Source: Acidilobaceae archaeon (GTDB taxonomy: Archaea; Thermoproteota; Thermoprotei_A; Sulfolobales; Acidilobaceae). From it: a DNA stretch of 51,440 nucleotides. The position numbers were made by a program, and so were the translations under genes. Of this stretch, positions 1,196-15,743 are shown piece by piece. The DNA lies in contig JALWEI010000006.1 in assembly GCA_027014125.1 (NCBI GenBank), forward strand, positions 1 to 51,440, in the 5' to 3' direction. Under the pieces are notes generated by a model. That model was not told the DNA's origin, did no database searches, and worked only from the letters and a program-made list of their open reading frames with translations. Numbering within the stretch: position 1 is the stretch's first letter; every line of letters starts with the position of its first letter.

Positions 1196-1642
1196 CTATA
1201 GGAGGGTCTCCGCCTCGCGGGCCCTCTTCTCCTCAGCCAGCCTCCTCACCACCTCGATTATGTAGCGTAGGCTCGTCCCGGGTAGGAAGACCTCTCTTAT
1301 CCCCATCCTCTTTAGGGGCTCTATGTCGGGTATCGGTATCGTTCCACCCAGCACGACTGGTATATCCTCTGCCCCGTACTCCCTGAGCTTCTCCATAAGC
1401 TTCTCCATGTGGTGCATGTGGGCGCCGCTGAGTATGCTGACCCCGATCACGTCCACGTCCTCCTGTATAGCAGCTAGGGCGACCTGCTCGGGGCTCTGCC
1501 TTATCCCCGTGTAGACGACCTCGAACCCCGCGTCCTTGAGGGCCCTCGCTATCACCTTTGCACCGCGGTCGTGCCCGTCTATACCGAGCTTCGCTACGAG
1601 GACCTTGATCCTCCTAGTAGATTGGGGGCTCGACATAGACAC
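1196..1642 (-). CDS. mcmA2: Methylmalonyl-CoA mutase, B12-binding subunit
   Basis: This 148-residue protein is the stand-alone C-terminal domain of methylmalonyl-CoA mutase, which binds adenosylcobalamin. The base-off/His-on motif DxHxxG is present as D22-G-H24-D-R-G27 in the stretch [12 protein letters not shown], followed by the SGAHMHH and GGTIPIPD segments of the flavodoxin-like fold. In archaea the mutase is commonly split into a catalytic and a B12 polypeptide, as here. The start is a GTG at 1642 (an ATG two codons later is possible). The gene overlaps the end of the catalytic subunit gene by 29 bases, which suggests translational coupling. Product: succinyl-CoA from (R)-methylmalonyl-CoA together with the partner subunit. 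Confidence 0.95.
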
Positions 1643-3314
1643 CGTACACCTCCTTGAGCGTCCCCATCACCTCGCCTAGGGTTGCCTTCGCCTTTACTGC
1701 CTGTAGTATGTATGGGACCACGTTGTCCCCCCTCTCAGCCGCCCTCCTGAGCTCGTCTAGGCTCCTCCTCCACCTTGCCTGGTCCCTCTCCGCCCTCACC
1801 CTCTTGACTCTCTCCTTCATCCTAGCCTCTATGCCGGGCTGGTCGAATTCTAGTAGGGGCACGTTCCTGATCTCGTCGATCTCCTCCTGCTCGAATATGT
1901 TGACCCCTACTATGAAGCGCTTGCCCTCCTCCACCTCCCTCTGGAACCTGTAGCTGGCCTCCGTGACCTCCCTCTGGGGGAACCCCTTCTTCACCGCCTC
2001 CAACATGCCACCCATCCTCTCTATCCTCTCTATGTACCTCCACGCCCTCTCCTCTATCTCATCGGTGAGCCACTCTACGAAGTAGCTCCCTGCTAGGGGG
2101 TCGACTGTATCAGCAACCCCTGTCTCGTAGGCTATGATCTGCTGTGTCCTGAGGGCTATCATTGCAGCCAGCTCGCTGGGGACCCTGAAGGGCTCGTCGA
2201 AGCCGTTGGTGTGGAGGCTCTGTGTGCCCCCTAGCACTGCCGCCAGGGCCTCTATGGCTGTCCTGACTATATTGTTGTATGGCTGCTGCGCGGTGAGGCT
2301 GACCCCTGCTGTCTGGGTGTGGAACCTCAGCCATAGGCTCCTCCTCTTCTTGGCCCCGAACCACTCCTTCATTATCTTGGCCCACATCCTCCTGGCGGCC
2401 CTGAACTTCGCTATCTCCTCGAAGAAGTTTATGTGGGAGTCGAAGAAGAAGCTGAGCCTGGGGGCGAAGGTGTCCACGTCCATGCCGCGGGCGATCAGCT
2501 GCCTCACGTACTCTATCCCATCGGCCAGTGTGAATGCTAGCTCCTGCACGGCTGTGCTGCCGGCCTCCCTTATGTGGTAGCCTGATATGCTTATCGGGTT
2601 CCACTTGGGGGTGTTCTTTATGCTCCACTCGATCAGGTCCATCGCAACCTTAACAGCCGGCTCCGGGGGGAAGACGTAGCTCTTCTGGGCTATGAACTCC
2701 TTGAGGGGGTCGTTCTGCGTGGTGCCCCCTATCTTGGTGTATGGCACGCCCTGCTTCTCAGCCACCGCGACGTAGAAGGAGTAGAGCACCGGTGCCGGGG
2801 GGTTTATGGTCATGTTTGTGGTTACCTCCCCCAGGTTTATGTCCCTGAATATGATCTCCATGTCAACCACTGTGGGCACGCTTACCCCGACTATACCGAC
2901 CTCCCCCTCGGCCATGGGGTCGTCAGGGTCTATGCCGATCAGTGTTGGATAGTCGAAGGCGAGGCTGAGCCCGGTCTCACCATGCTTTATGAGGAACTTG
3001 AGCCTCTCATTTGTCTCCTCTGGCCCGCCGTAGCCGGAGAACATCCTCATGGTCCATATCCTTGCCCTGTACATGGTTGCGTGTATCCCCCTGGTGAAGG
3101 GGTACTCGCCGGGGAGGCCTAGCTTCTCCATGTAGTCGTGGTCCTTGAGGTCGAGTGGCGTGTAGAGCCTCTTCACCGGTATGCCGCTTAGTGTCGTGAA
3201 CTCGCTCATCCTCTCAGGCAGCTTCTTGAGCCACTCGGGGACTACCTCCTCCTCCCAGCGCCTATACCTCTCCTCCAGCTCCCTCAGGGCGTCCTCCGAG
3301 TATATCCTAGGCAA
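1614..3314 (-). CDS. mcmA1: Methylmalonyl-CoA mutase, catalytic subunit
   Basis: This 566-residue protein is the catalytic TIM-barrel subunit of methylmalonyl-CoA mutase. Recognisable family segments are [19 protein letters not shown] near residues 73-93, [13 protein letters not shown], the [11 protein letters not shown] stretch, [25 protein letters not shown], and [12 protein letters not shown] and HTNGFDEP towards the C-terminal third. The B12 domain is absent and supplied by the overlapping downstream gene. The likely start is a TTG at 3314. The upstream region is shared with a divergent cobalamin-type binding-protein gene, which fits a need for B12. The enzyme joins propionyl-CoA/branched-chain catabolism to the succinyl-CoA pool. 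No epimerase or propionyl-CoA carboxylase gene is in this window. Confidence 0.95.
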
Positions 3315-3426: not shown

Positions 3427-4278
3427 GTGCCTATAGGCCTGGACGGGGTGTCCAGCGTGGTTAAACTCTTCTCCGAGGCCCTTGGAAGGGAGGTCGAGGT
3501 CCCCGACGAGCCGGAGAGGATAGTGAGCCTCTCCCCCGCGATCACGGAGATACTCTACAGGATAGGCCTGGAGGACAGGATAGTGGGGGTCAGCTTCTAC
3601 TGCAACAAGCCCCCGAGGGCTAGGGAGAAGCCCCGGGTGGGGAGCTACTATAAGGTCCTCTACGATAAGATAGAGGAGCTGGAGCCCGACCTGGTCCTCA
3701 CGACAACCGGGGCGCAGAGGAAGGTTCTGGAGGAGCTCGCATCCCGCTTCACCGTATACCCGGTCCCCCTCCCCGTCACGATCCACGGGATAATAGACGA
3801 GATCAAGATTGTCGGGATAATAACGGGGAGGATCAGGGAGGCCCGCAGGCTGGCGGGAGAGGCAGCCAGGATCCTGGGCAAGCTAGAGGGCAAGCTGGCC
3901 GGGGTTAGGCTATACTACGAGATATTCCTAGGCGGCCCCGTCAGCGCTGGGGCCCACAGCTACATAGAGGACCTATTCAGCCACCTGGGAGCTGAGACCC
4001 CATTCTCCAACACAAGGACCACGTGGGTCATAAACCCGAGCCCGGAGGCGGTGAAGGCCTTCAACCCCCAGGTGATACTATACGAGAGGAGCCCCTACGC
4101 AGAGTTGACCAGGGAGAAGATAGCGAGGAGCCTGGAGGAGAGGGGGCTAGCTGGGCTTGAAGCCCTCAGGGAGGGGAGGCTGATAGTGCTGGAGCCCGAC
4201 ACACTGGCCCACTACGGCCCCAGCATATTCGAAGACACGCAGAGGATAGTGCAGGAGGTCAGGAGGCTACTCTCCTAG
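3427..4278 (+). CDS. BtuF-like substrate-binding protein without signal peptide
   Basis: This protein of at most 283 residues belongs to the helical-backbone-metal-receptor/BtuF group of periplasmic binding proteins. The PERIVSLSPAITEILYRIGL opening and the GVSFYCNKPP, ELEPDLVLTT, GAHSYIEDLFSHLGAETPF and NPSPEAVKAFNPQVIL segments are typical of cobalamin or siderophore binding proteins. No signal peptide or lipobox precedes the fold, so it may be cytoplasmic. The GTG at 3427 lies upstream of a palindrome (3439-3455); the GTG at 3457 is an attractive alternative start that leaves the palindrome in the leader. Divergence from mcmA1 suggests a role in cobalamin handling; that is inference. No permease or ATPase gene accompanies it. 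Confidence 0.8.
   Translation: MPIGLDGVSSVVKLFSEALGREVEVPDEPERIVSLSPAITEILYRIGLEDRIVGVSFYCNKPPRAREKPRVGSYYKVLYDKIEELEPDLVLTTTGAQRKVLEELASRFTVYPVPLPVTIHGIIDEIKIVGIITGRIREARRLAGEAARILGKLEGKLAGVRLYYEIFLGGPVSAGAHSYIEDLFSHLGAETPFSNTRTTWVINPSPEAVKAFNPQVILYERSPYAELTREKIARSLEERGLAGLEALREGRLIVLEPDTLAHYGPSIFEDTQRIVQEVRRLLS
3439..3455. promoter_or_regulatory. 17-bp palindrome, copy 2, at the BtuF-like gene
   Basis: CTGGACGGGGTGTCCAG differs from the perfect form at 7603 by one base. It lies about 35 bases downstream of the AT-rich promoter core and just before the alternative GTG start at 3457, so it most likely covers the transcription start or early leader. Confidence 0.6.
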
Positions 4279-5746
4279 CCACCACCCATACCAGCCTTGC
4301 AGCCAGGCCCCGGGCCCAGGGGCTAACCGCTAGGAGCAAGAGGCCATACACGGTGGCTGAGACTGCTAGGTGGGCCCCCAGGAGTACCCCGTCCTCCAGC
4401 GGCTCCACGACTATGATACCCCCGGCCCCCGAGGCCTTGAGGTAGGCCAGGGCTCCCAGCCCGGCTAGGATGGCCTCCATCAGGCTGCGCCAGGGGAACC
4501 TGAAGCCTGCCCGCCTCAGTATGAGGTGGTACCTTAGGGCAGCTGCGAGCCTCGCCAGGGCGATCACAGTCATATATAGCGTGGCGGCCTTCCATGGGCT
4601 CCCTGCTATGGTGGAGGCGGCGGCCCCGAGCACCATGCCCAGGAGGAGTACTATTATCTCCCAGGTGACAAGCCTGTAGAGCCTCCTATACCCCTCTCCC
4701 GTGAGCCTCGTGGAGCCTTGTATGTACACCCTGTAGCTGAAGGATAGCCCGGCTATGAAGGAGTAGATGGCCCCCGCAATTAGGACTAGGTGCCCGTCGA
4801 TGTAGACTGGGTTGAAGAAGCTCGCTATAGGCCTGGAGGCCCCAGCGATCAGGGCTAGGAGGAGGCCTAGGAAGGCTAGGTATATCCTGATCGTCTCCTC
4901 TAGCCCCCACAGGCCTCCTCCCCTGAGGGAGCTGGCGTAGAGGCCGGGCACCATAGAGTGGCCCATCCTTGTCATGGGCCCTGCTATGGAGAGGGCCATG
5001 TTAAGGTACGCTACCGGCCTTATCAGCCCCGTCACCCAGGTGTACACGGGCCTAACCAGGTTCTCCGAGGCGGTCACCATGAGTATGGATATGGGGAGGC
5101 GCCACCTCCTGAGCCAGCCAATGGCCATGTCCCTGCTGAACCCTAGGCCGGAGACTGGGAGCCTTGAGTATACAGCAGTGGAGGATGCTAGGAGCGCGAG
5201 GCTGGCGATATCGAGGCTGGCAACCGCGCCTCTCAGCCCCCAGCCCATCCAGGCTACGAGCACGAGCGCGGCCCCGAGCTTGGCAGCCTCGTGCACTAGG
5301 AGGAGGGGGCCTAGGAGCTCGGGGCGTGTGACACCTATGATCCCGCTACTCATGTACCTGGCTATAACGTACATGGCGACAGCGGGGGCTGCCAGGAGGC
5401 CTACCCGGGGGTTCAGGCCTGCCGCCTGTAGCGTTGTCCACGCTACTAGGGAGTATATGAGGGCTGCTATGGGCGCGGCTGCTATGGAGAGGAGTAGCCC
5501 GGTGCCCGCCGCCTTCTTGGCCTCGGGGCCCGTTGTCTCCCCGACGGTGCGTTGGGCCCACCAGTGCCATATGTGGGAGAGTAGGGGTATGGCCTGGTAG
5601 AGTGAGAGTATTATGCCTAGGGCTGCGAAGCCCTCTACGCCTAGCCTCCTGGCGACTGTTATTATGAAGAGGAGTGAGAAGCCTATCCTGGCTATGGCTG
5701 AGGCTAGGTTTGCCAGGGCTGCTAGGCGTAGCCTTACTCCTGTCAA
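4259..5746 (-). CDS. Polysaccharide/lipid flippase-like membrane protein (MOP superfamily)
   Basis: The protein has about 495 residues, with 12 or more hydrophobic segments spread over the whole length. It resembles the oligosaccharide flippase (Wzx-like) branch of the MOP superfamily, with an N-terminal IARIGFSLLFIITVARRLGVEGF segment typical of that group. It would move a lipid-linked glycan or similar substrate across the membrane. An in-frame ATG at 5812 exists, but it lies 70 bases inside the preceding gene. The TTG at 5746, which overlaps the upstream stop codon (ATTGA) and follows GGCGGAGAGG, is a better start. The 3' end overlaps the convergent BtuF-like gene by 20 bases. The substrate is unknown. 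Confidence 0.75.
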   Translation of the reverse strand: MTGVRLRLAALANLASAIARIGFSLLFIITVARRLGVEGFAALGIILSLYQAIPLLSHIWHWWAQRTVGETTGPEAKKAAGTGLLLSIAAAPIAALIYSLVAWTTLQAAGLNPRVGLLAAPAVAMYVIARYMSSGIIGVTRPELLGPLLLVHEAAKLGAALVLVAWMGWGLRGAVASLDIASLALLASSTAVYSRLPVSGLGFSRDMAIGWLRRWRLPISILMVTASENLVRPVYTWVTGLIRPVAYLNMALSIAGPMTRMGHSMVPGLYASSLRGGGLWGLEETIRIYLAFLGLLLALIAGASRPIASFFNPVYIDGHLVLIAGAIYSFIAGLSFSYRVYIQGSTRLTGEGYRRLYRLVTWEIIVLLLGMVLGAAASTIAGSPWKAATLYMTVIALARLAAALRYHLILRRAGFRFPWRSLMEAILAGLGALAYLKASGAGGIIVVEPLEDGVLLGAHLAVSATVYGLLLLAVSPWARGLAARLVWVVARRVAS

Positions 5747-5988
5747 TCCTCTCCGCCGCCCAGCTCCTCTGGCTCGGGCCTGGGGCTTGTTATCAGTGTG
5801 TATCCTATCCATGATAGTAGTCCGAATATTGTTGCCAGTGCTATTAGACCCATTACTTTTAGTGTGAATATGTCTATCGGGTCTCCCATGACCGTTATTG
5901 GGGGTGGGGTGAATACTAGGTAGATGTATGCCAGCATCACTACTATCGATATTGTTATCATGACTGCCCCTGCTGCCCTGTCGTCCAT
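5743..5988 (-). CDS. Small two-span membrane protein
   Basis: This 81-residue protein starts with an ATG at 5988. It has two hydrophobic helices: roughly residues 8-27 (VMITISIVVMLAYIYLVF) and 44-66 (VMGLIALATIFGLLSWIGYTL). A short proline-rich loop separates them, and an acidic tail ends PEELGGGED. It sits between the AMP-ligase-like gene (38 bases upstream) and the flippase-like gene, which it overlaps by 4 bases, so it is probably part of the same transcript and membrane function. I do not recognise a family. Confidence 0.7.
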   Translation of the reverse strand: MDDRAAGAVMITISIVVMLAYIYLVFTPPPITVMGDPIDIFTLKVMGLIALATIFGLLSWIGYTLITSPRPEPEELGGGED

Positions 5989-6026: not shown

Positions 6027-7559
6027 TTATAGGTAGCCCTCTATCCGTATGTCCCTGACCTTCTTGTAGAATGCTACCCTGCTGTTTATGTATGATAGTA
6101 GCTCCTCTGGGGTTATCCTGCCCTGGTAGTCCCTCCTTATCCAGACTCTGGCTACAGGCTTCTGGCCTACTGCCTCGTCTGGCACGCCCTCCACTATTGC
6201 CTTTGCCACGGCTGGGTGGCGTTCTAGGAGGACCTCTAGGTCCCGGGGTAGTATGGCGTATGCCTTGTACTTGATGAGTCTCTTCCGGACTCCCCTGAAG
6301 TAGAGTAGGCCGTTCTCGTCCATGTAGATCAGGTCCCCGGTCCGGAGCCACCCGTCTATGAATGCCTTCTCGTTCTCCTCGGGGAACTCGTATCCCTTCA
6401 TAATCCATGGGGACCTTGCTAGTAGCTCCCCCGTCTCCCCGGGCCCCAGCTCCCTGGCTGGGTTGTCCGGGTCCACTAGTCTGACGTCTACCCCGGGTAG
6501 GGGTATGCCTAGCGTGCCCTTGACCTCCCTTAGGCTCACGGGTTGTAGGGTGAGTAGGAGGCTCTCGGTCATACCGTATCCCTGGACTAGGGGTGTCGAT
6601 AGCCTCTCCCAGTACTCGTCTTGCAGCTCCGGTTTCAGGGGGGCCCCGGCTGATACGGCTAGTTTTATCCTCCCACGTGCACTGGGGGCTAGCTCCGCTA
6701 CTAGCTGCTCGTACATCATGGGGGCCCCGGCCATGTAGTTTACGGATCCCTCCTCTACCAGCCTAGCAGCGAGGCTGGGCCTCCAGCGCCTCATCATGTA
6801 GACGGTGCCTCCCTCTGCTAGGGGTGATAGGAGTGATAGCTGGAGGCCTAGCACGTGGGTTATCGACGCCACCGCGAGGGAGGAGTAGCCGCTGTCCACC
6901 CCGGCCATGAGGTTGTATGCCTTGACCGCGTGGTGGAGGCCTGCATGGGTGTGGATGGCCTGCATGGTCCTCCCTGCTATGCCGGAGTAGTATAGTGCTA
7001 TCGAGTCGTCCCCCGGCCCTGGCTCGGGATCCCTCCACTCTCCTGGTGGCGGGGTGTCGCCGAGGCCTGAGACGTGTAGGTCCTCGAGGCCGTCTACCCA
7101 GTCTAGGGATAGGACCTCGCGGGGGCCCGTCTCCTCTAGTATTGGCCTGTTCCTCTCCAGGAACTCCCTGTCCGCTATCAGGGCTACGAACCGTCTCCCC
7201 TCAAGCTGTATCCTGAGGTCCTCGCCTATCGTTAGGGGGTCTATGAGGACTGTGCGGGCTCCGGAGGCTAGGGCTCCTATGAGCGCTGCTGCCGCTTGGA
7301 CTGTGTTCCTAGCTGCTAGGGCGACCTGTTCTCCCTTCCATGCCCCGCGGGATTGGAGCCATGCCGCTATCGACTTTGAGACGGTCTTGAGCTTCTCGTA
7401 GGTGTAGCAGTAGCCGGTCTCGGCTTGTATTAGCGCCATCTTCCCTGCCGGCCCGCTCCATGCCTTGGTGTATATGGGGGTGTACTCCGTGTCTAGGACC
7501 TTGGGTACGCCCTGGGGCCATACCTTGTGCCAGGGTCTCCCGTCTATTGTGGACACCAT
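6027..7559 (-). CDS. AMP-dependent synthetase/ligase-like protein with degenerate active-site motifs
   Basis: This 510-residue protein has the fold of acyl-adenylating enzymes. The A5 motif YGMTES and the A7-type GWLRTGD are kept, and the A8 hinge region (FRGVRKRLIKYKAY) is recognisable. Two catalytic elements are not normal. The A3 nucleotide-binding loop, usually TSGTTGxPKG, reads YSGIAGRTMQA without its lysine. The protein also stops at IRIEGYL, just before where the A10 lysine motif normally lies. It could be an unusual ligase, a thioester-only enzyme or a pseudo-enzyme. It is the first gene of a minus-strand operon with a small membrane protein and a flippase, and it shares its promoter region with livG. 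Confidence 0.8.
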   Translation of the reverse strand: MVSTIDGRPWHKVWPQGVPKVLDTEYTPIYTKAWSGPAGKMALIQAETGYCYTYEKLKTVSKSIAAWLQSRGAWKGEQVALAARNTVQAAAALIGALASGARTVLIDPLTIGEDLRIQLEGRRFVALIADREFLERNRPILEETGPREVLSLDWVDGLEDLHVSGLGDTPPPGEWRDPEPGPGDDSIALYYSGIAGRTMQAIHTHAGLHHAVKAYNLMAGVDSGYSSLAVASITHVLGLQLSLLSPLAEGGTVYMMRRWRPSLAARLVEEGSVNYMAGAPMMYEQLVAELAPSARGRIKLAVSAGAPLKPELQDEYWERLSTPLVQGYGMTESLLLTLQPVSLREVKGTLGIPLPGVDVRLVDPDNPARELGPGETGELLARSPWIMKGYEFPEENEKAFIDGWLRTGDLIYMDENGLLYFRGVRKRLIKYKAYAILPRDLEVLLERHPAVAKAIVEGVPDEAVGQKPVARVWIRRDYQGRITPEELLSYINSRVAFYKKVRDIRIEGYL

Positions 7560-7580
7560 TTACCCTCCATTCTATGGTTC

Positions 7581-7596
7581 GGTATATATCTTAACC
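7581..7596. promoter_or_regulatory. Shared TATA region of the AMP-ligase-like gene and livG
   Basis: GGTATATATCTTAACC contains ATATATACC on the minus strand and TATATATC on the plus strand. Leftward start would be near 7563, making the ligase-like mRNA almost leaderless. Rightward start would be near 7612, inside the palindrome at 7603-7619. Confidence 0.55.
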
Positions 7597-7602
7597 TGTC
7601 TC

Positions 7603-7619
7603 CTGGACAGGGTGTCCAG
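7603..7619. promoter_or_regulatory. 17-bp palindrome, copy 3 (perfect form), in the livG promoter
   Basis: CTGGACAGGGTGTCCAG has two perfect 7-base arms around a GGG centre. It lies about 15-30 bases after the plus-strand TATA region and 30 bases before the livG ATG. This is the same position relative to the TATA box as in copy 1. A regulator bound here would block initiation of the liv operon and could also affect the divergent ligase-like gene. Confidence 0.7.
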
Positions 7620-7648
7620 TGTAGTTACCTATTTTACCCTAATAAAAC

Positions 7649-8530
7649 ATGTTATCCCTATTAACTGGTGGTCTTTTGAGGGGAACACGCCAGCTCTTCG
7701 ACGTCGAGTCCTGGAAGGTTGACCGTGTCTGGGATAAGGGTGAGTTGTACAAGAAGAGGCCTGTGAAGCCCGAGACCCTGGTCAGGACCGAGCATATACT
7801 CGTGGAGTTCGGTGGGATAAGGGCTGTTGATGACGTGTCGATAAGCGTGAGGAGGGGGGAGATACTCGGCATAATAGGCCCCAATGGGGCCGGGAAGACG
7901 AGCCTCCTCAACGTGATATCCGGCTTCTACAAGCCCAAGCACGGCCGGGTCTACTATAAGGGGAGGGACATAACACGCCTCCCCCCGCACGAGAGGGTTA
8001 AGCTAGGTATATCGAGGACCTTCCAGCACAGCGAGCTCTTCATGGGCATGAATGTGATCGAGAACATCATGGTGGGCCTCCACCCCTGGGCCCGGGGGAA
8101 CCCCCTGACCTACGCCCTCTGGACCCCGGGCGTGGTGGAGTGGGAGGAGTGGGCCAGGGAGAGGGCTGAGCACGTGATCGACCTCCTAGACCTCCACGAG
8201 TACCGGTACCACATAGTGGGTAGCCTCCCGCCCGGCGTGCAGAAGAGGGTCGACCTGGCTAGGGCGCTCGCCCAGGAGCCTGAGGTGGTTTTCATGGATG
8301 AGCCCATGGCAGGGTTGACCAGGGAGGAGAAGGAGGACCTAGTCAGGGCCATCATAGAGGTGTACGAGACCCGGGGCGTCACCTTCGTCCTCGTTGAGCA
8401 CGACCTCGAGGTTGTAACCGATATCTGCGACAGGCTGGTCGTCATGGACTTCGGCAAGGTTATCGCCGAGGGCCCGCCGGAGGAGGTTGTCAACAACCCG
8501 CTCGTGGTCAAGGCATACCTAGGCTCGTAG
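7649..8530 (+). CDS. livG: Branched-chain-type ABC transporter ATPase, LivG-like
   Basis: This 293-residue ABC ATPase is of the LivG class. Walker A is GPNGAGKTS near residues 76-84, the Q-loop region is SRTFQHSELF, and the signature takes the Liv-specific form LPPGVQKRVDLARAL instead of LSGGQ. Walker B is VVFMDEP, and the H-loop is LVEHDLEVV. An N-terminal extension of about 45 residues before EHILVEFGG is unusual; internal TTG or GTG starts would remove most of it. It is the first gene of the liv cluster and is followed 13 bases later by an acyl-CoA synthetase gene. It energises the LivH/LivM permease pair together with LivF. Confidence 0.9.
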   Translation: MLSLLTGGLLRGTRQLFDVESWKVDRVWDKGELYKKRPVKPETLVRTEHILVEFGGIRAVDDVSISVRRGEILGIIGPNGAGKTSLLNVISGFYKPKHGRVYYKGRDITRLPPHERVKLGISRTFQHSELFMGMNVIENIMVGLHPWARGNPLTYALWTPGVVEWEEWARERAEHVIDLLDLHEYRYHIVGSLPPGVQKRVDLARALAQEPEVVFMDEPMAGLTREEKEDLVRAIIEVYETRGVTFVLVEHDLEVVTDICDRLVVMDFGKVIAEGPPEEVVNNPLVVKAYLGS

Positions 8531-8543
8531 GGGGTGAGCCCTC

Positions 8544-10496
8544 ATGGTTCTGGAGACTGTAACCGTTGGGGAGGAGCCCGTTGGTAGGGGCCGCGAGCCC
8601 TATGAGACCACCTTCCCCCTCCTCCTGGCCGAGAGGGCTAGGAGGAGCCCCCAGGGCACCGCGTTCAGGTGGAAGAGGTACGGGATATGGAGGAGGTACA
8701 CGTGGAGCGAGTACCTGGAGAGGGTCGCGTGGGCCGCCATGGGGCTCCGAGCCCTAGGCCTAGGCGAGGATGATAAGGCTGCGTTTATGACGTTCAACAG
8801 GCCTGCTTGGGTGATCTACGAGCTGGGCGCCCAGACCGCTGGCGGGATCAGTATTGGTATATACCGTGATAGCCTCAGCGACGAGGTAGGCTACGTGCTG
8901 GATAGGAGCGATGCAAAGATAGTGCTGGTCGAGGGCCAGGAGCAGCTGGACAGGGTACTCGACTCGGGCGTGGATGTTGATAGGATTATAGTTGACGAGG
9001 CTAAGGGGCTACACCAGTATAGGGACATGCTGGATAGGAGGATAATCACCTTCGGAGACCTCCTAACCATCGGAAGGAGGGAGTATAAGGCGAGGCCCAG
9101 CGCCTTCAGGAGGATGATAGCCGAGTCAAGCCCCGACAGGGTGTGCGGCTTCTTCACAACCAGCGGCACGACGGGGCTCCCCAAGCTGGCCATGCTTACC
9201 TATAAGAGCATGCTGGCCATGGCCCACCAGCTCAACACGCTGGACCCTGTTGGGGAGAAGTGGGAGTACGTCTCCTTCCTCCCCACCGCGTGGATAGGGG
9301 AGCAGATGATGAGCATATCCCTCCACCTCCTAGCCGGGTTCAGGCTAAACTTCCCCGAGTCCCCCCACACCGTCTGGAGGGACTTCAGGGAGATAGCACC
9401 CCACTTCCTCTTCTCGCCCCCGAGGGTCTGGGAGAGGCTTGCCAAGGACATAATGGCTAGGATCGAGGACAGCGACCCGCTCAAGAGGACGGCATACAGG
9501 GTGGCCATGTGGATCGGGGAGCGGGCCGCCAGGAGTAGGCTGGTGAAGGGGAGGAGCAGGCCGACCCCCCTGTGGAGGGCGCTCCACTACCTCGCATACT
9601 GGCTGGCCTTCAGGCATATACTTGACAAGAATGGGTTGAAGAGGGTTAGGAGGGCCTACACGGGCGGGGCTATGATAGCGGAGGACTACGTCTTCTACTA
9701 CCACACCCTTGGCGTCAACCTGAAGCAGATCTATGGGCAAACCGAGATAGCTGGCATAGCCGTAGTCCACCCGGACGACGATGTCAGGCCAGACACCGTG
9801 GGCAAGCCCCTGCCGCTCACAGAGATCAGGATAGCCGAGGACGGCGAGATCCTACTCCGCAGCCCGGCCCTGATGGTCGGCTACTATAAGAATGAGGAGG
9901 CCACGAGGCGGACTATAGTGGACGGGTGGCTCCACACCGGGGACGTGGGGGAGCTGACTAGCGACGGCCACCTGAAGATCAAGGACAGGGCGAAGGAGAT
10001 CATAACACTCTCCGACGGCACCATGGTGGCGCCGCAGATAGTCCAGAACAAGCTGAAGTTCAGCCCCTACATAGGGGAGGCCGCCATAATAGGCTCCGGG
10101 AGGCCCTACCTCATAGCCCTCCTCAACATAGACTTCGAGATAGTGTCCAGGTGGGCCGAGAGGAGGAAGATAAGCTTCACAAGCTACTCCGACCTGTCGC
10201 AGAAGCCAGAGGTCCTAGAGCTCCTCCGCAGGGAGGTTTCCAGGGCCAATAGCAGGCTGCCCGAGAAGATGCGTGTAAAGCGCTTCGTCAGCCTCTTCAA
10301 GGAGTTCCACCCTGACGACGAGGAGATGACTAGGACTAGGAAGCTTAGGAGGATGGTGATAGAGGAGAGGTATGCAGGGCTCATAGAAGCGATGTATAAT
10401 GGCGAGGAGGAGTATGAGCTCACCGTTGTGATGAAGCTCGAGGACGGCCGCAGGGTCCCGGTGACGAGGAGGGTTAGGATAATGAGCGCCGAGTAG
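8544..10496 (+). CDS. Long-chain-type acyl-CoA synthetase (AMP-forming)
   Basis: This 650-residue acyl-CoA ligase has all core motifs. The A3 loop FTTSGTTGLPKLA is near residues 202-214, the A5 motif YGQTEIAG is in the middle third, and GWLHTGDVG and IKDRAKEIITLSDG follow. The C-terminal domain carries an MTRTRKLRR element in the A10 position. It resembles the FadD15/bubblegum class. It lies inside the liv transporter operon between livG and livH, so the imported compound is probably a carboxylic acid that is activated to a CoA thioester on entry. Reaction: acid + ATP + CoA to acyl-CoA + AMP + PPi. The chain length accepted cannot be told from the sequence. Confidence 0.92.
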   Translation: MVLETVTVGEEPVGRGREPYETTFPLLLAERARRSPQGTAFRWKRYGIWRRYTWSEYLERVAWAAMGLRALGLGEDDKAAFMTFNRPAWVIYELGAQTAGGISIGIYRDSLSDEVGYVLDRSDAKIVLVEGQEQLDRVLDSGVDVDRIIVDEAKGLHQYRDMLDRRIITFGDLLTIGRREYKARPSAFRRMIAESSPDRVCGFFTTSGTTGLPKLAMLTYKSMLAMAHQLNTLDPVGEKWEYVSFLPTAWIGEQMMSISLHLLAGFRLNFPESPHTVWRDFREIAPHFLFSPPRVWERLAKDIMARIEDSDPLKRTAYRVAMWIGERAARSRLVKGRSRPTPLWRALHYLAYWLAFRHILDKNGLKRVRRAYTGGAMIAEDYVFYYHTLGVNLKQIYGQTEIAGIAVVHPDDDVRPDTVGKPLPLTEIRIAEDGEILLRSPALMVGYYKNEEATRRTIVDGWLHTGDVGELTSDGHLKIKDRAKEIITLSDGTMVAPQIVQNKLKFSPYIGEAAIIGSGRPYLIALLNIDFEIVSRWAERRKISFTSYSDLSQKPEVLELLRREVSRANSRLPEKMRVKRFVSLFKEFHPDDEEMTRTRKLRRMVIEERYAGLIEAMYNGEEEYELTVVMKLEDGRRVPVTRRVRIMSAE

Positions 10497-10501
10497 CGGG
10501 G

Positions 10502-11386
10502 GTGAGTGGCGTGGACCCGATGCTGCTACTAGAGTCGACAGTTAGGGGCGTCATCATAGGCCTGACCTATGCTATGATCGCCCTGGGATTCAATATCGTG
10601 TATAGGGTGAACAAGTCGATAAACTTCGCGCACCCCGTCATAGTCCTCATGGCCGCCTATATAGCCTTGGTTGCATCGTACAGGTACAACCCCCTGCTTG
10701 CCTACGTCCTCGCGGTGCTAGCCGGTGTTGCTGCCAGTATAGCGATTGAGAGGCTAGTGGCCAGGCCGCTCCTGGGGAGGCCTCCCGTGGCCCTGATCGG
10801 CGCTACCCTAGGGATATACTACTTGTTCAAGGGGGTCACGATTACTATTGGGGGCGCCGAGACGGCTAGCCTACCCATAGGGTACAAGCTCTACCATCTG
10901 GGCCCCATAACGCTGGGCCTCAACGATATAGTGTCTGGGCTCGGCAGCCTCCTGGTGCTGGCCCTCGTCATACTCCTCCACATGAAGACCAGGCTAGGCT
11001 CGGCTATGAGGGCGGTCGCCGAGGACGTGGAGGGGGCGGCGGCCTACGGGATACCTGTTAGGAGGCTGATGAGCCTCAGCTGGGCCCTCGCGGGCCTGGT
11101 CGGAGCACTGGGCGGCCTCTTCCTGGCTGTGAAGAACCAGGTGTCGGTGGAGCTGGAGTTCTATGCAATAAGGGCGCTCGCCGCCAGCCTCCTAGCGGGG
11201 CTGGATAGCATAGGGGGCGTCGTGATCGGTGGCATAGTGCTTGGGGTGGCCGAGGAGGTTGGGGGCCTCCTACTGGACGACTACCTCCCCGGGATAGGGT
11301 ATGACCTGGCCTTCTTCATACTGCTACTAGTCCTCTTCGTCAAGCCCTACGGCCTCTTCGGGACCGAGAGGATAGAGAGGGTGTAG
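10502..11386 (+). CDS. livH: Branched-chain-type ABC permease, LivH-like
   Basis: This 294-residue inner-membrane permease has about eight hydrophobic spans. The opening GVIIGLTYAMIALGFNIVYRVNKSINFAH is the usual LivH start. The cytoplasmic EAA-like loop that contacts the ATPases is seen around AVAEDVEGAAAYGIPVRRL, followed by ALAGLVGALGGLFLA. The start is a GTG at 10502, five bases after the acyl-CoA synthetase stop, which indicates one operon. With LivM it forms the channel of a branched-chain amino acid, amide or carboxylate importer. Confidence 0.92.
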   Translation: MSGVDPMLLLESTVRGVIIGLTYAMIALGFNIVYRVNKSINFAHPVIVLMAAYIALVASYRYNPLLAYVLAVLAGVAASIAIERLVARPLLGRPPVALIGATLGIYYLFKGVTITIGGAETASLPIGYKLYHLGPITLGLNDIVSGLGSLLVLALVILLHMKTRLGSAMRAVAEDVEGAAAYGIPVRRLMSLSWALAGLVGALGGLFLAVKNQVSVELEFYAIRALAASLLAGLDSIGGVVIGGIVLGVAEEVGGLLLDDYLPGIGYDLAFFILLLVLFVKPYGLFGTERIERV

Positions 11387-11404: not shown

Positions 11405-12442
11405 GTGCCGGCTGGAGTGTTCAAGGAGACGTACAGGGCCGATATGGCCCACCTACGCTACCCCATCCACTGGGCTGGCCTCGTGCTGGGGGCCGGCTTG
11501 GCCCTGACCGCCCCACTATACTTGCAAGGATACTACCTGGACCAGGCTATACTATTCATGATATTCCTGATAGCGGCGGTCGGCCTCAATATAACCCTGG
11601 GGCTGGCGGGGCTCATAAGCCTGGCCCACGCCGCCCTCATGGGGGCTGGTGCGTACACCGTCGCTATGCTGGCGTTGAAGGCTGGGTTTAACGCGGTCCT
11701 GGCTATACCCCTGGCTGGCGTTGCCGCTGCTGTGCTTGGCTTCATACTGAGCCTCCCTAGCTTCAAGTTGAAGGGCTACTACCTGGCGATGGCCAGCCTG
11801 GCGGCCCAGTTCATATTAGAGTACTTCTACTCCCTCCTGGCCCCGGAGCAGTATATAACCGTGCCCTTCGAGACCAAGGAGATCGCTGGGGTATTCTTCG
11901 GCGAGGGGGTGCCCCTCTACTACCTAGCCCTAGCGATAACCGTACTCCTGCTCCTAGCGGCTGGGAACCTTGCTAGGAGTAGCCTGGGTAGGGCTATGAA
12001 GGCGGTCAGGGACAACGATGTTGCGGCCGAGATTGTTGGTATAAACGTTACTAGGACCAAGGCCCTAGCCTTCACCATAGGCGGCTTCTACGCCGGCATA
12101 GCCGGGGGACTATACGCGCTATATAGCGCCGGGATAGGCTGGGAGGGCTTCACCCTCCTCGTCTCCATAGAGCTACTGGGCATGGTGCTCATAGGAGGCC
12201 CCGGCAGGGTTGTATGGGGGAGCATGCTAGGGGTCCTCGTGCTTAAGACTGGGTGGACCAACCTGGAGAGCAGCCTAAGCCCCCTCCTCATGGATATGGG
12301 GCTTGACATAATAGCCTCCACCGCAAAGTACATAGTGCTAGGCACCCTCATAGCAGTCTTCATAATACTCGAGCCCGAGGGCCTGATAGCAGTACTGAGG
12401 AGGGTGAAGGAGTACCTGAGGCTATGGCCCTACAGCTACTAA
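11405..12442 (+). CDS. livM: Branched-chain-type ABC permease, LivM-like
   Basis: This 345-residue permease has about ten hydrophobic segments. LivM features are GLNITLGLAGLISLAHAALMGAGAYTVA near the N-terminus and the ATPase-contact loop AMKAVRDNDVAAEIVGINV, followed by TKALAFTIGGFYAGIAGGLYA. The start is a GTG at 11405, 18 bases after livH. Its stop is followed by a TATA-like TCTATATAG and a short gap, so the next gene may have its own promoter. Confidence 0.92.
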   Translation: MPAGVFKETYRADMAHLRYPIHWAGLVLGAGLALTAPLYLQGYYLDQAILFMIFLIAAVGLNITLGLAGLISLAHAALMGAGAYTVAMLALKAGFNAVLAIPLAGVAAAVLGFILSLPSFKLKGYYLAMASLAAQFILEYFYSLLAPEQYITVPFETKEIAGVFFGEGVPLYYLALAITVLLLLAAGNLARSSLGRAMKAVRDNDVAAEIVGINVTRTKALAFTIGGFYAGIAGGLYALYSAGIGWEGFTLLVSIELLGMVLIGGPGRVVWGSMLGVLVLKTGWTNLESSLSPLLMDMGLDIIASTAKYIVLGTLIAVFIILEPEGLIAVLRRVKEYLRLWPYSY

Positions 12443-12491: not shown

Positions 12492-13025
12492 ATGCCTAGA
12501 GCCCTAGTTATATCAGCGGACGGCTTCGAGGATGTAGAGCTCCTCTACCCCTACTACAGGCTCGTGGAGGCCGGGTTCGAGGTCCACATAGCCTCGATGA
12601 GGGAGGGGGAGATAACCGGTAAGCACGGCTACAAGGTGAAGGTGGACAAGGCGTTCAGCAGCGTGGATCCAGGGGAGTACGATGTGCTGGTGATACCCGG
12701 GGGCCGGGCGCCCGAGAGGGTTAGGCTTGACAGCGATGCGCTGAGGATCGTTAGGAGCTTCTTCGAGACCGGGAAGCCTGTTGCAGTGATATGCCACGGC
12801 CCACAGATCCTCATAAGCGCGGGGCTAGTTAAGGGTAGGAGGATGACGAGCTACTGGGGGGTCAAGGACGATGTTATAGCAGCTGGGGGCGTGTGGCTGG
12901 ATGAGCCGGTCGTGGTCGACGGGAACCTGGTCTCGGCCAGGTACCCCGGTGACATACCATTCTGGATGAGGGAGTTCATGAAGCTACTCGAATCCCGGGG
13001 TCTGCTGAGGCACACCCCCCAGTAG
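12492..13025 (+). CDS. DJ-1/PfpI family protein
   Basis: This 177-residue protein of the class I glutamine amidotransferase-like DJ-1/PfpI family matches the length of Pyrococcus PfpI. The nucleophile elbow AVICHGPQ holds C101 and H102, and the family acidic residue is E13 in DGFEDVEL. PfpI homologues have been described as intracellular peptidases and as glyoxalase III/deglycase-type enzymes; the sequence alone does not decide between them. It lies between livM and livK on the same strand, where it interrupts the transporter genes together with the phosphatase-like gene that follows. Confidence 0.88.
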   Translation: MPRALVISADGFEDVELLYPYYRLVEAGFEVHIASMREGEITGKHGYKVKVDKAFSSVDPGEYDVLVIPGGRAPERVRLDSDALRIVRSFFETGKPVAVICHGPQILISAGLVKGRRMTSYWGVKDDVIAAGGVWLDEPVVVDGNLVSARYPGDIPFWMREFMKLLESRGLLRHTPQ

Positions 13026-13050
13026 CTATAGCCTAAGGGTGCTGTTTCCC

Positions 13051-13461
13051 ATGATCCTTGGCCTGATGAGGCATGGAAGGGCTGAGTCTGTAGGGGGCGA
13101 TGAGAGGCGTCTAACCAGTGAGGGCGTGAGGGAGGTTGAAGCCGTTGCTAGGATGCTTCCCTTCAAGCCGGTGGTAGTCTATACTAGCCCTCTGAGGAGG
13201 GCTGTTGAGACCGCCGAGATCGTGGCTAGGATCCATGGTGTGGAGGTTAGGGTTGAGGAGGGTCTTAGGCCTGGCGTGTTCAGTGTGGAGGTCTTCAATA
13301 GGCTGGCCGGTGATAGGGTCCTCATGGTGGGTCATAATCCGTCTATTAGTAGGGTTGCCTCGTTCCTGACTCGTAGCGTGGTGGACCTTGGCACCGGGTG
13401 GGTTGCGGTCCTGGAGGGGGATGCTGGCTCCTGGAGGCTGGTCTCGCTAGTCAGGCCCTAG
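13051..13461 (+). CDS. SixA-like phosphohistidine phosphatase (histidine phosphatase superfamily)
   Basis: The protein has about 136 residues. It opens MILGLMRHGRAES with the catalytic RHG motif. VVVYTSPLRRAVETAEIVA supplies the second conserved arginine, and LMVGHNPSISRVA supplies the second histidine. Such short members (SixA type) remove phosphate from histidine or from small substrates. The ATG at 13051 gives the standard N-terminus, though an in-frame GTG at 13039 also exists. It follows the PfpI-type gene by about 25 bases, and a promoter for livK lies beyond it. Confidence 0.85.
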   Translation: MILGLMRHGRAESVGGDERRLTSEGVREVEAVARMLPFKPVVVYTSPLRRAVETAEIVARIHGVEVRVEEGLRPGVFSVEVFNRLAGDRVLMVGHNPSISRVASFLTRSVVDLGTGWVAVLEGDAGSWRLVSLVRP

Positions 13462-13579: not shown

Positions 13580-14893
13580 TTGGATAGCAGGGTCCTGGCT
13601 GGGATCGCGGTCCTCGTAATAATAGTCATAGCGGCTGGCTTCCTCATGATGCGGGGCGGTGAGGAGGCTGCCACGGGGACAACCGCCACCGAGGCTGCTG
13701 GTGGAGCCGAGGCTGGCGGCAAGGAGATCACTATAAAGGTTGGCCTCCTGGTCGACGAGACTGGGCCTACTAGCGACGTTGGTAAGGGCTATGCCATGGG
13801 CGCCGAGGCAGCCTTCAAGTACTTCAACGACAAGGGGATATACACCAAGGACGGTGTCAGGGTTAAGATAGAGTATATCAAGAGGGACTACGCCTACAAG
13901 CCCGACCAGGCGGAGGCCTTCTACAAGGAGTTCAGGGACAAGTACGGCGTTATAGCGATAATAGGCTGGGGCACCGCCGATACTGAGAAGCTTGCAGACA
14001 CCGTGGCGAGGGACAAGATAGTCTATATAAGCGCCAGCTACTCCGCGAAGCTCACCATAAAGCCCTACAACTTCTTCCCCGCACCCGACTATAGCACCCA
14101 GGCGTGCGCAGGCATAGCCTGGGCGGCCGAGCAGAAGCCCGGGGCCAAGCTGGCCCTACTCTACGACCACAAGGTAGCCTACAGTAGGAGCCCTATACCT
14201 GCTATAAAGGCTGTCGCGGAGGCCCTAGGCCTCCAGCTGGTAGGCGACTTCGACCTGAGCCTCAAGGCGACCGAGGCCAGCGCCGAGAGGGTGGTGAGCG
14301 ACGCCGCGACCAAGAACCCCGATGTACTGTGGTGCGGGAACACTATAAGCAGCTGTAGCCTAGCAGTTAAGGCCATGGCGAAGGTCGGGCTCGACGGCAT
14401 GCTTCTAGCCAACGTTTGGGGCTTCGACGAGAGGGTAGTAGACCTGGTCGGGGACGCTGGTAAGGGTAGGATGGCCGGCGTGACTCCCTTCGTCTACCCG
14501 ATGTTCGCCAAGGACATGGGCGCTAAGGGGATCGACACTGTGATGGAGGCTGCCAAGGCTGCTGGGTTCAGCGAGAATGACGTGAACCTAAGGTTCGTCC
14601 AGGGCTTCCTAAACGTGTGGCTGCTGGTGCAGGCTATAGAGAGGACGGACTCCACGGCGCTACAGGAGAAGGGTGGGGAGGCGTTGAAGGCCGCCCTGGA
14701 GTCGTCGTGCAACGGGGAGCCCTTCAAGTTCGGCGGCCTTACTGCTGATGACGTGAGGTTCTGCCCCGACAGCCACCTTGCGCATAAGAAGGTTTACGTG
14801 GTTGTCTTCAGCGATGCTGGCAGCCTCGAGATACAGGGCCCATACGAGGCCCCGAGCCAGGTGGACTGCGTTAAGGCCACTATACAGGGCTAG
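13580..14893 (+). CDS. livK: Branched-chain-type ABC substrate-binding protein, LivK-like, N-terminally anchored
   Basis: This 437-residue extracytoplasmic binding protein is of the Leu/Ile/Val-binding (type I periplasmic) family. Residues 4-25 form one hydrophobic helix (RVLAGIAVLVIIVIAAGF) without a lipobox cysteine. A Thr/Ala/Gly/Glu linker (about 28-50) follows, then the binding fold beginning IKVGLLVDETGPTSDVGKGYAMGAEAAFKYFN. The helix probably stays as an N-terminal membrane anchor. The TTG start at 13580 is chosen because an out-of-frame ATG just upstream leads nowhere. Extra cysteines (WCGNTISSC and others) may form disulfides. The ligand may be a branched acid or amino acid. Confidence 0.9.
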   Translation: MDSRVLAGIAVLVIIVIAAGFLMMRGGEEAATGTTATEAAGGAEAGGKEITIKVGLLVDETGPTSDVGKGYAMGAEAAFKYFNDKGIYTKDGVRVKIEYIKRDYAYKPDQAEAFYKEFRDKYGVIAIIGWGTADTEKLADTVARDKIVYISASYSAKLTIKPYNFFPAPDYSTQACAGIAWAAEQKPGAKLALLYDHKVAYSRSPIPAIKAVAEALGLQLVGDFDLSLKATEASAERVVSDAATKNPDVLWCGNTISSCSLAVKAMAKVGLDGMLLANVWGFDERVVDLVGDAGKGRMAGVTPFVYPMFAKDMGAKGIDTVMEAAKAAGFSENDVNLRFVQGFLNVWLLVQAIERTDSTALQEKGGEALKAALESSCNGEPFKFGGLTADDVRFCPDSHLAHKKVYVVVFSDAGSLEIQGPYEAPSQVDCVKATIQG

Positions 14894-14957: not shown

Positions 14958-15743
14958 GTGTCTGGGGCGCTGGTTGAGGTTAGGAATGTCGAGATAATGT
15001 ACCACCCCTTCATACTCGTGATCAAGAACCTGAGCCTGGAGGCTATGGAGGGTAGGATAACCGCTATACTCGGCCCAAACGGTGCGGGGAAGAGCACTCT
15101 CCTCAAGGCGGTGTCGGGGGTTTTGAAGCTTGAGAGGGGTAGGGTTACGCGTGGCGAGATACTATTTGCCGGGGAGAGGATTGAGAATAGGGATCCTGAT
15201 ACCGTGGCTAAGAAGGGTATAGTGTATGTGGCCGAGGGTAGGAGGATCTTCAAGGAGCTCACAGTCCAGGAGAATATAGATGCCGTCTCCTACGCCTGGG
15301 GGAACAGGGTCGACCCCGGGATAGTGTATGACTACTTCCCGAGGCTGAAGGCTAGGAGGAGCACTAGGGCCGGGTACCTTAGTGGTGGGGAGCAGCAGAT
15401 GCTCGCTATAGGGCTAGCCCTCCTAGCTAAGCCAAGGCTGATGCTCCTTGACGAGCCGAGCCTCGGGTTGGCCCCGAAGATTGTGAGCCAGGTGTACGAG
15501 TCGATAAAGCTGATGCATGAGAATGAGGGTATAACCATGATACTGGCGGACCAGAACGCTGTTAAGGCCCTCGATATAGCGGATTACGGATATATCATGG
15601 AGAATGGCAGGATAGTGACTGAGGGCCCCGCCCAGCGGCTTAGGGAGGATAAGGATGTTAAGGAGTTCTACCTTGGCATGGGGGCTCATAGGGTTAGTTA
15701 TAGGACCGTGAAGTGGTATCATAGGAAGAAGAGGTGGATCTAG
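14958..15743 (+). CDS. livF: Branched-chain-type ABC transporter ATPase, LivF-like
   Basis: This 261-residue second ATPase of the Liv importer has Walker A GPNGAGKST near residues 40-48. GIVYVAEGRRIFKELTVQEN is the LivF version of the Q-loop region, the signature is YLSGGEQQMLAIG, Walker B is LMLLDEPSLGLAP, and the H-loop is a divergent DQN. A basic tail (VKWYHRKKRW) extends past the usual end. It follows livK by 64 bases. Its stop codon overlaps by 4 bases the end of the convergent winged-helix gene. Confidence 0.92.
   Translation: MSGALVEVRNVEIMYHPFILVIKNLSLEAMEGRITAILGPNGAGKSTLLKAVSGVLKLERGRVTRGEILFAGERIENRDPDTVAKKGIVYVAEGRRIFKELTVQENIDAVSYAWGNRVDPGIVYDYFPRLKARRSTRAGYLSGGEQQMLAIGLALLAKPRLMLLDEPSLGLAPKIVSQVYESIKLMHENEGITMILADQNAVKALDIADYGYIMENGRIVTEGPAQRLREDKDVKEFYLGMGAHRVSYRTVKWYHRKKRWI

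Follow-up and report, generated by a model that had tools for sequence, protein, structure and literature searches.

An apparently undescribed ANL family in Thermoproteota with a replaced P-loop and no A10 segment, and its possible role with CoA thioesters

The window, a stretch of 51,440 nucleotides from an Acidilobaceae archaeon, carries on its minus strand a gene for a non-canonical, acyl-CoA ligase-like member of the ANL superfamily, which is divergent from a cluster of Liv-type ABC transporter genes (Table 1). The reading frame runs from an ATG at 7559 down to 6027 without internal stops and encodes 510 amino acids. DJ-1/PfpI and histidine-phosphatase genes (Pfam) lie inside the transporter cluster, at 12492-13461 on the plus strand. 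Just downstream of the ANL gene, a small ORF (5743-5988, minus strand) encodes 81 amino acids with two hydrophobic stretches recognized by eye, and similar small ORFs of 84 and 78 amino acids occupy the same place in genomes G002 and G003 (L040 and L041). A hydrophobic protein of 517 amino acids (4259-5812, minus strand), which has no Pfam match, is kept beside the ANL gene in the window's genome, G002, and G003. Genes for methylmalonyl-CoA mutase (1614-3314) and the MeaB GTPase (134-1135), both identified by Pfam on the minus strand and separated by a B12-binding-like ORF (by eye), represent further acyl-CoA metabolism near the ANL gene.

Table 1. Positions of the ANL gene, its motifs, and the neighboring transporter and ligase genes in the window
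Feature	Positions	Strand	Remarks
Non-canonical ANL (acyl-CoA ligase-like) gene	6027..7559	minus	510 aa; 59 complete family members
Shortened C-terminus, stops before A10	6030..6089	minus	residues 491-510; Y498 and K499 in 59/59
A8/hinge region	6234..6311	minus	GLLYFRGVRKRLIKYKAYAILPRDLE, residues 417-442; from alignment
A7 motif GWLRTGD, kept	6333..6353	minus	residues 403-409 (Asp409); D409 in 59/59
A5 motif YGMTES, kept	6561..6578	minus	residues 328-333 (Glu332); E332 in 59/59
A3/P-loop, replaced	6957..6992	minus	YYSGIAGRTMQA, residues 190-201; K at 199 in 0/59 family members, 65/65 ordinary ligases
LivG-type ABC ATPase	7649..8530	plus	divergent from the ANL gene, 89 nt between
Ordinary AMP-forming acyl-CoA ligase	8544..10496	plus	PF00501 and AMP-binding_C_3; within the Liv transporter gene cluster
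LivH- and LivM-type permeases	10502-11386, 11405-12442	plus	first also by Pfam
Liv-type substrate-binding protein	13580-14893	plus	Peripla_BP_6
LivF-type ATPase	14958-15743	plus	

Two Pfam profiles place the 510-aa protein in the ANL superfamily: PF00501 (193.4 bits, cut-off 29.9) and PF13193 (34.1 bits, cut-off 24.5). The latter match covers positions 2-65 of 76 only; the last 11 positions (66-76), which correspond to A10, are absent. Among the residues expected of a functional AMP-forming ligase, the A5 TxE glutamate and the A7 GD aspartate are present. The A3 T-T-G-x-P-K motif is replaced by GIAGRTM, part of the stretch YYSGIAGRTMQ that stands where ordinary ligases have the P-loop; the A8 arginine is replaced by Val424; and the A10 catalytic lysine is missing, with the chain ending in ...YINSRVAFYKKVRDIRIEGYL-stop (also written ...VAFYKKVRDIRIEGYL). 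No A10-like sequence was found downstream of the ORF in the three minus-strand frames down to about position 5740. In the A8/hinge region, Arg427 is new, and Lys426, Lys430, Lys432, and Tyr434 are as in the nearest ordinary ligases. The initial annotation, which described an altered A3 loop without the P-loop lysine, a chain that stops ahead of the C-terminal catalytic lysine, and intact YGMTES and GWLRTGD motifs, is thus borne out. Its statement that the two best-conserved lysines are lost is correct for both residues but understates the change: the P-loop threonines and proline are replaced too, and so is the A8 arginine, a third loss that it did not mention. The ordinary ligase at 8544, which it proposed for comparison, keeps TSGTTGLPK (by eye). 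Against the NCBIfam models of named ligase families, the 510-aa protein stays under the cut-off of each of the best 25 of 93 matches, with a top score of 218 bits compared with a cut-off of 705, and two other family members (L028 and L016) also score below the cut-offs (among the best 25 of 93 and of 90).

A protein search of 60 related genomes yielded 22 near-complete homologues with 39-100% identity, the window's own copy included, and the altered loop and early stop are found in all 22. A profile built from these sequences was run on 398 Thermoproteota genomes and detected the family in 51 of them (match of at least 388 bits, including a broken copy in G418 and a copy with one stop in G318). 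The output comprised 62 ORFs or fragments, of which the 59 with more than 400 bits were kept; the three excluded were a fragment at a contig end (G029) and two pieces of the broken G418 copy. The pooled set, drawn from Thermoproteota genomes only, has 59 complete members (422-556 aa) in 57 genomes; among the source loci, L037 belongs to a Desulfurococcales archaeon and L038 to an Acidilobaceae archaeon. The G418 copy (L098, 7696-9195), which has five in-frame TAA codons, is the clearest decayed member seen, and G318 has one TGA inside the family match. For comparison, 46 ordinary ligases were combined with the 19 nearest ones to give 65; two incomplete ordinary rows (L111_5 and L097_20) were present in the first, 48-row alignment and were dropped from the trees and from the 65-ligase counts. 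All 19 fetched matches just under the 388-bit line are ordinary ligases with a P-loop and an A10 lysine.

The alignment with close homologues, which had been proposed as a check on the initial annotation, indicates that the altered motifs are conserved in all 59 complete members; orthologues with normal motifs, named there as contrary evidence, do not occur among them. The position of the P-loop lysine is occupied by methionine (46 members), leucine (5), glutamate (5), or tyrosine (3). At the position of the A8 arginine, which is present in 65/65 ordinary ligases, family members have valine (50), isoleucine (5), leucine (3), or methionine (1) and never arginine. The A10 motif is found in none of the 59, of which 58 stop before it; the exception, in G227 (L122, 1337-2968, plus strand), is a longer ORF that continues into a cysteine-rich tail in place of A10. 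In G216, a separate cysteine-containing ORF of 61 aa (L124, 8002-8184, plus strand) overlaps the gene end by 20 nt.

Other positions distinguish the family to different degrees. Asp107, Asp114, Tyr191, Thr198, Phe421, and Arg427 are invariant in the family and rare in ordinary ligases, and His203 (57/59) is also rare elsewhere; residue 197 is arginine in 56 members and lysine in 3. Glu332 and Asp409 are shared with all 65 ordinary ligases. Lys426, Lys430, Lys432, Tyr434, Tyr498, and Lys499 are present in 59/59 members and variable in the 46 more distant ordinary ligases; among the 19 nearest, the four lysines are found in all and the two tyrosines in 18. Lys426, Lys430, and Lys432 were therefore rejected as family novelties. 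Residue 500 was rejected as a kept CoA contact, as it is lysine or arginine in 57/59 members and alanine in 13 of the 19 nearest ligases. Residue 433 is alanine in 19/59 members, including the 510-aa protein.

The family forms one clade with a single origin. In a tree of 105 proteins it lies on one side of a branch with an SH-aLRT value of 100 (all columns), and the value is 99 when the A3, A8, and C-terminal columns are removed (31 of the 59 members); both trees were built quickly, with no bootstrap, and some long branches meet according to a program warning. Purifying selection on the family is strong: dN/dS, computed for 26 pairs with 75-99% identity, is 0.053-0.169 in the 21 whose dS is not saturated. 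The window's own copy gives 0.056 against that of G002, and the neighboring ordinary ligase of the same genome pair gives about 0.05 (0.032/0.63). These data bear on local decay, a frameshift, or a sequencing error in an ordinary ligase, to which next to no probability can be given. Nothing in this genome speaks for such an event, and the points in its favor are the broken copy in G418 (five stops) and the single stop in G318 among the relatives. Because 59 members share the same motifs and end region, dN/dS is low, and the other downstream frames hold no A10, decay is refuted by the relatives.

The family resembles class I ANL ligases over nearly the whole chain (4-coumarate:CoA ligase, 3a9u, profile E 1.7e-72; FadD-1, 3g7s, 1.1e-79), with which it has in common TxE, TGD, and the A8 IKYK-G/A stretch. 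Unlike these enzymes, all 59 members are without the P-loop threonines, proline, and lysine, the A8 arginine, and the A10 segment. The next-best matches of the family profile are 19 Thermoproteota acyl-CoA ligases (L130-L148), which have the A8 lysines in common with the family and, at the C-terminus, an FVNxRVAxYKxIRxV-like stretch; however, they all have YTGGTTG-x-[PAS]-K and the A10 GK (A10 by eye), and they fall outside the family clade. Fatty acyl-AMP ligases (FAALs) are also a variant ANL subfamily with an altered part of the two-step reaction. By description only, according to excerpts of PMC8460268, FAALs reject CoA and rely on holo-ACP, whereas the present family misses the ATP-handling side. 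Literature searches, several of them narrow and with most subscription journals outside their scope, found no description of the family, which is apparently an undescribed ANL subfamily in Thermoproteota.

The roles of the affected residues are known from other ANL enzymes. The C-terminal domain turns between adenylation (A10 lysine) and thiolation (A8 lysine) states; in GrsA, Lys517 in A10 stabilizes adenylation and Lys434 stabilizes the thiolation half-reaction (passages of PMC11253843). Lys430 of the 510-aa protein aligns with the A8 lysine of 4-coumarate:CoA ligase (4CL), which is equated here with GrsA Lys434. Its presence is weak evidence of function because the equivalent lysine is not universal in ordinary ligases (19/19 of the nearest but 21/46 of the others). 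The P-loop and A8 mutants considered below, which are tabulated in a review from its references 9, 11, and 63, are presumably those of 4-chlorobenzoate:CoA ligase. The P-loop binds ATP phosphates, and mutation of its lysine lowers activity only 4-fold, whereas mutation of Thr161 lowers it 2,000-fold, that of Pro168 abolishes it, and that of the A8 Arg400 lowers it 100-fold (Table 2 and accompanying passages of PMC8388817). Loss of the P-loop lysine alone thus proves little.

It might be supposed that the protein is still an ATP-dependent ligase in which substitute residues, e.g., Arg197 together with Lys426, Arg427, Lys430, and Lys432 of A8, take over the lost functions. The mild effect of the P-loop lysine mutation, the basic residue at position 197 in 59/59 members, the new and invariant Arg427, and the conservation of the three A8 lysines would fit such an enzyme. 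However, the P-loop threonines and proline, whose mutants are strongly impaired, as is that of Arg400, are gone as well, and the A10 segment is physically absent in every member, which makes this alternative distinctly improbable.

The structure 3etc, which we take to be MacsMa, has an aligned stretch one residue longer than that of the 510-aa protein. By spacing only (Gly459 to Tyr525, 66 residues; 433 to 498, 65 residues), Tyr498 falls on MacsMa Tyr525, which has been studied as a CoA-pocket residue, and residue 433 (alanine here) falls on a highly conserved glycine proposed to open the pantetheine tunnel (passages of PMC10455477). In acetyl-CoA synthetase, the A8 arginine touches the phosphate of the acyl-adenylate, and it is believed to maintain the thioester conformation (same source). 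An AlphaFold2 model of the 510-aa protein built from four sequences has a mean pLDDT of 46.5, too low for structural conclusions.

In the relatives, the family gene often lies in a context of acyl-CoA metabolism, at some loci within Liv-type transporter or beta-oxidation clusters, but the adjoining ligase varies in kind. A profile-detected AMP-binding ligase is found within 8 kb of 33/59 members, compared with about 4.6 expected, and a Liv permease within 8 kb of 17/59, compared with about 1.7; these expectations are rough, as they are based on PF00501 counts and rounded genome sizes and are uncorrected for relatedness and contig ends. The incomplete L111_5 and L097_20 were counted as ligase neighbors, so that the loci in G110 and G122 both count among the 33; a second ligase neighbor is present in G110 but not in G122. 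In G110, an ORF of 681 aa (L111, 5119-7161, minus strand) has an acyl-CoA ligase-like start and a LivF-like end (by eye) and is either a fusion or an assembly artefact. No profile-detected ligase lies within 8 kb of the remaining 26/59, three of which (G005, G011, and G021) are beside PaaK-like ligases, an identity read from same-cluster members in G029 and G005. In G011, G021, and G005 (L043, L044, and L046), the family gene has a PaaK-like ligase gene on either side. The neighboring ligases are of at least four kinds: FadD11-like with AMP-binding_C_3, ACS-type (about 630 aa with ACAS_N), a type of about 555-560 aa, and PaaK-like.

Some of the arrangements are tight, with overlaps between family genes and ligase, LivF (by eye), zf-ChsH2, and MoCoBD genes. 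An upstream ligase gene overlaps the family gene by 1 or 4 nt in G096, G137, G166, G172, G333, and G349; in the g90 group of six, an ACS-type ligase overlaps the family gene by 4 nt in five members and is 12 nt away in the sixth (one ligase Pfam-checked). In G290, the family gene follows a permease gene with a 14-nt overlap, and the cluster also encodes Liv subunits and a ligase. In G217, it lies with 4-nt overlaps between zf-ChsH2 and molybdopterin oxidoreductase genes, with thiolase, acyl-CoA dehydrogenase, CoA transferase, and ECH genes nearby, and in G125 a hydroxyacyl-CoA dehydrogenase/ECH fusion precedes it, with thiolase, zf-ChsH2, and ligase genes nearby. In family f11, 16/20 members have no ligase within 8 kb, and a thioredoxin-like gene is directly downstream in 16/20, 12 of them with an 8-nt overlap (one Pfam-checked); at L059, the thioredoxin gene (7359-7757, plus strand) overlaps the family gene end by 8 nt.

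The frequency of ligase neighbors (33/59) and the 1- or 4-nt overlaps with upstream ligase genes would be expected of a non-catalytic pseudo-enzyme subunit that forms a heteromer with the adjoining true acyl-CoA ligase and regulates or stabilizes it. This explanation is nonetheless unlikely: the active-site residues Glu332 and Asp409 are invariant, 26 members have no profile-detected ligase within 8 kb (three of them adjoin PaaK-like ligases), and one fixed partner surface is improbable because the neighboring ligases are of at least four kinds.

Two specific links were considered and set aside. Ignicoccus-like genomes keep the family gene along with few other ligases, which raised the idea of a 4-hydroxybutyrate-CoA ligase of the carbon-fixation cycles; the literature consulted on this gave no link. 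Genome G050 has a weak PF00501 match at 421751 (E 0.00135). According to passages of PMC5468417, Igni_0475, a "fatty acid CoA ligase" of Ignicoccus, is reported to occur within Nanoarchaeum; a family link to it was dropped, as part of the forward primer has no exact match in G050 (the second codon may have been changed by a cloning site). We take G050 to be Ignicoccus hospitalis, and its match at 421751 may, by our reading of the tag order, be Igni_0475.

Taken together, the data favor a neofunctionalized ANL protein that has probably given up ATP adenylation and may still bind or handle CoA thioesters, a reading to which we assign a probability of roughly 0.6. The P-loop, A8 arginine, and A10 lysine are replaced or missing in 59/59 members, and the replacement itself is largely conserved. 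The loss of ATP phosphate and ribose contacts, together with the retained Glu332, Asp409, A8 lysine, and putative CoA contact, favors a non-adenylating role with CoA thioesters. The ANL ligase fold would be retained. Binding of a CoA thioester is suggested because Lys430, TxE, TGD, and Tyr498, the probable CoA-contact position, are kept; it would occur in the conformation of the second (thioester) half-reaction, since the A10 lysine, on which the adenylation conformation depends, is missing. The protein probably works in the pathway of the adjoining true acyl-CoA ligases, which would comprise Liv-type ABC uptake, activation, and beta-oxidation-type steps, and its role might be to hold or sense acyl-CoA or to make or break CoA thioesters without ATP. 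More specifically, and only tentatively, the family may be an ANL scaffold fixed in the thioester half of the cycle, with ATP-independent formation, cleavage, or transfer of CoA thioesters beside ordinary ligases. A simple "second half only" enzyme is counted against by the loss of the A8 arginine, which suggests that AMP could be irrelevant; perhaps neither AMP nor acyl-AMP is bound. The alanine at residue 433, in place of the usual tunnel glycine, likewise counts against the CoA-thioester reading. The proposal of the initial annotation that the protein has a new activity or is a regulatory pseudo-enzyme survives, as the losses are conserved family-wide, and sequence does not decide between the two.

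ANL enzymes are well-studied two-step catalysts in which the alternation between adenylation and thiolation conformations is central. A natural family in which one side of this cycle persists and the other has been dropped offers a ready test of which residues serve each half-reaction, and it is under strong selection across archaeal families. The finding is also a warning for annotation: genes of this family score well against acyl-CoA ligase models and would be annotated as ligases, which they may not be. It points to an unrecognized participant in the uptake of acids and the metabolism of acyl-CoA in archaea.
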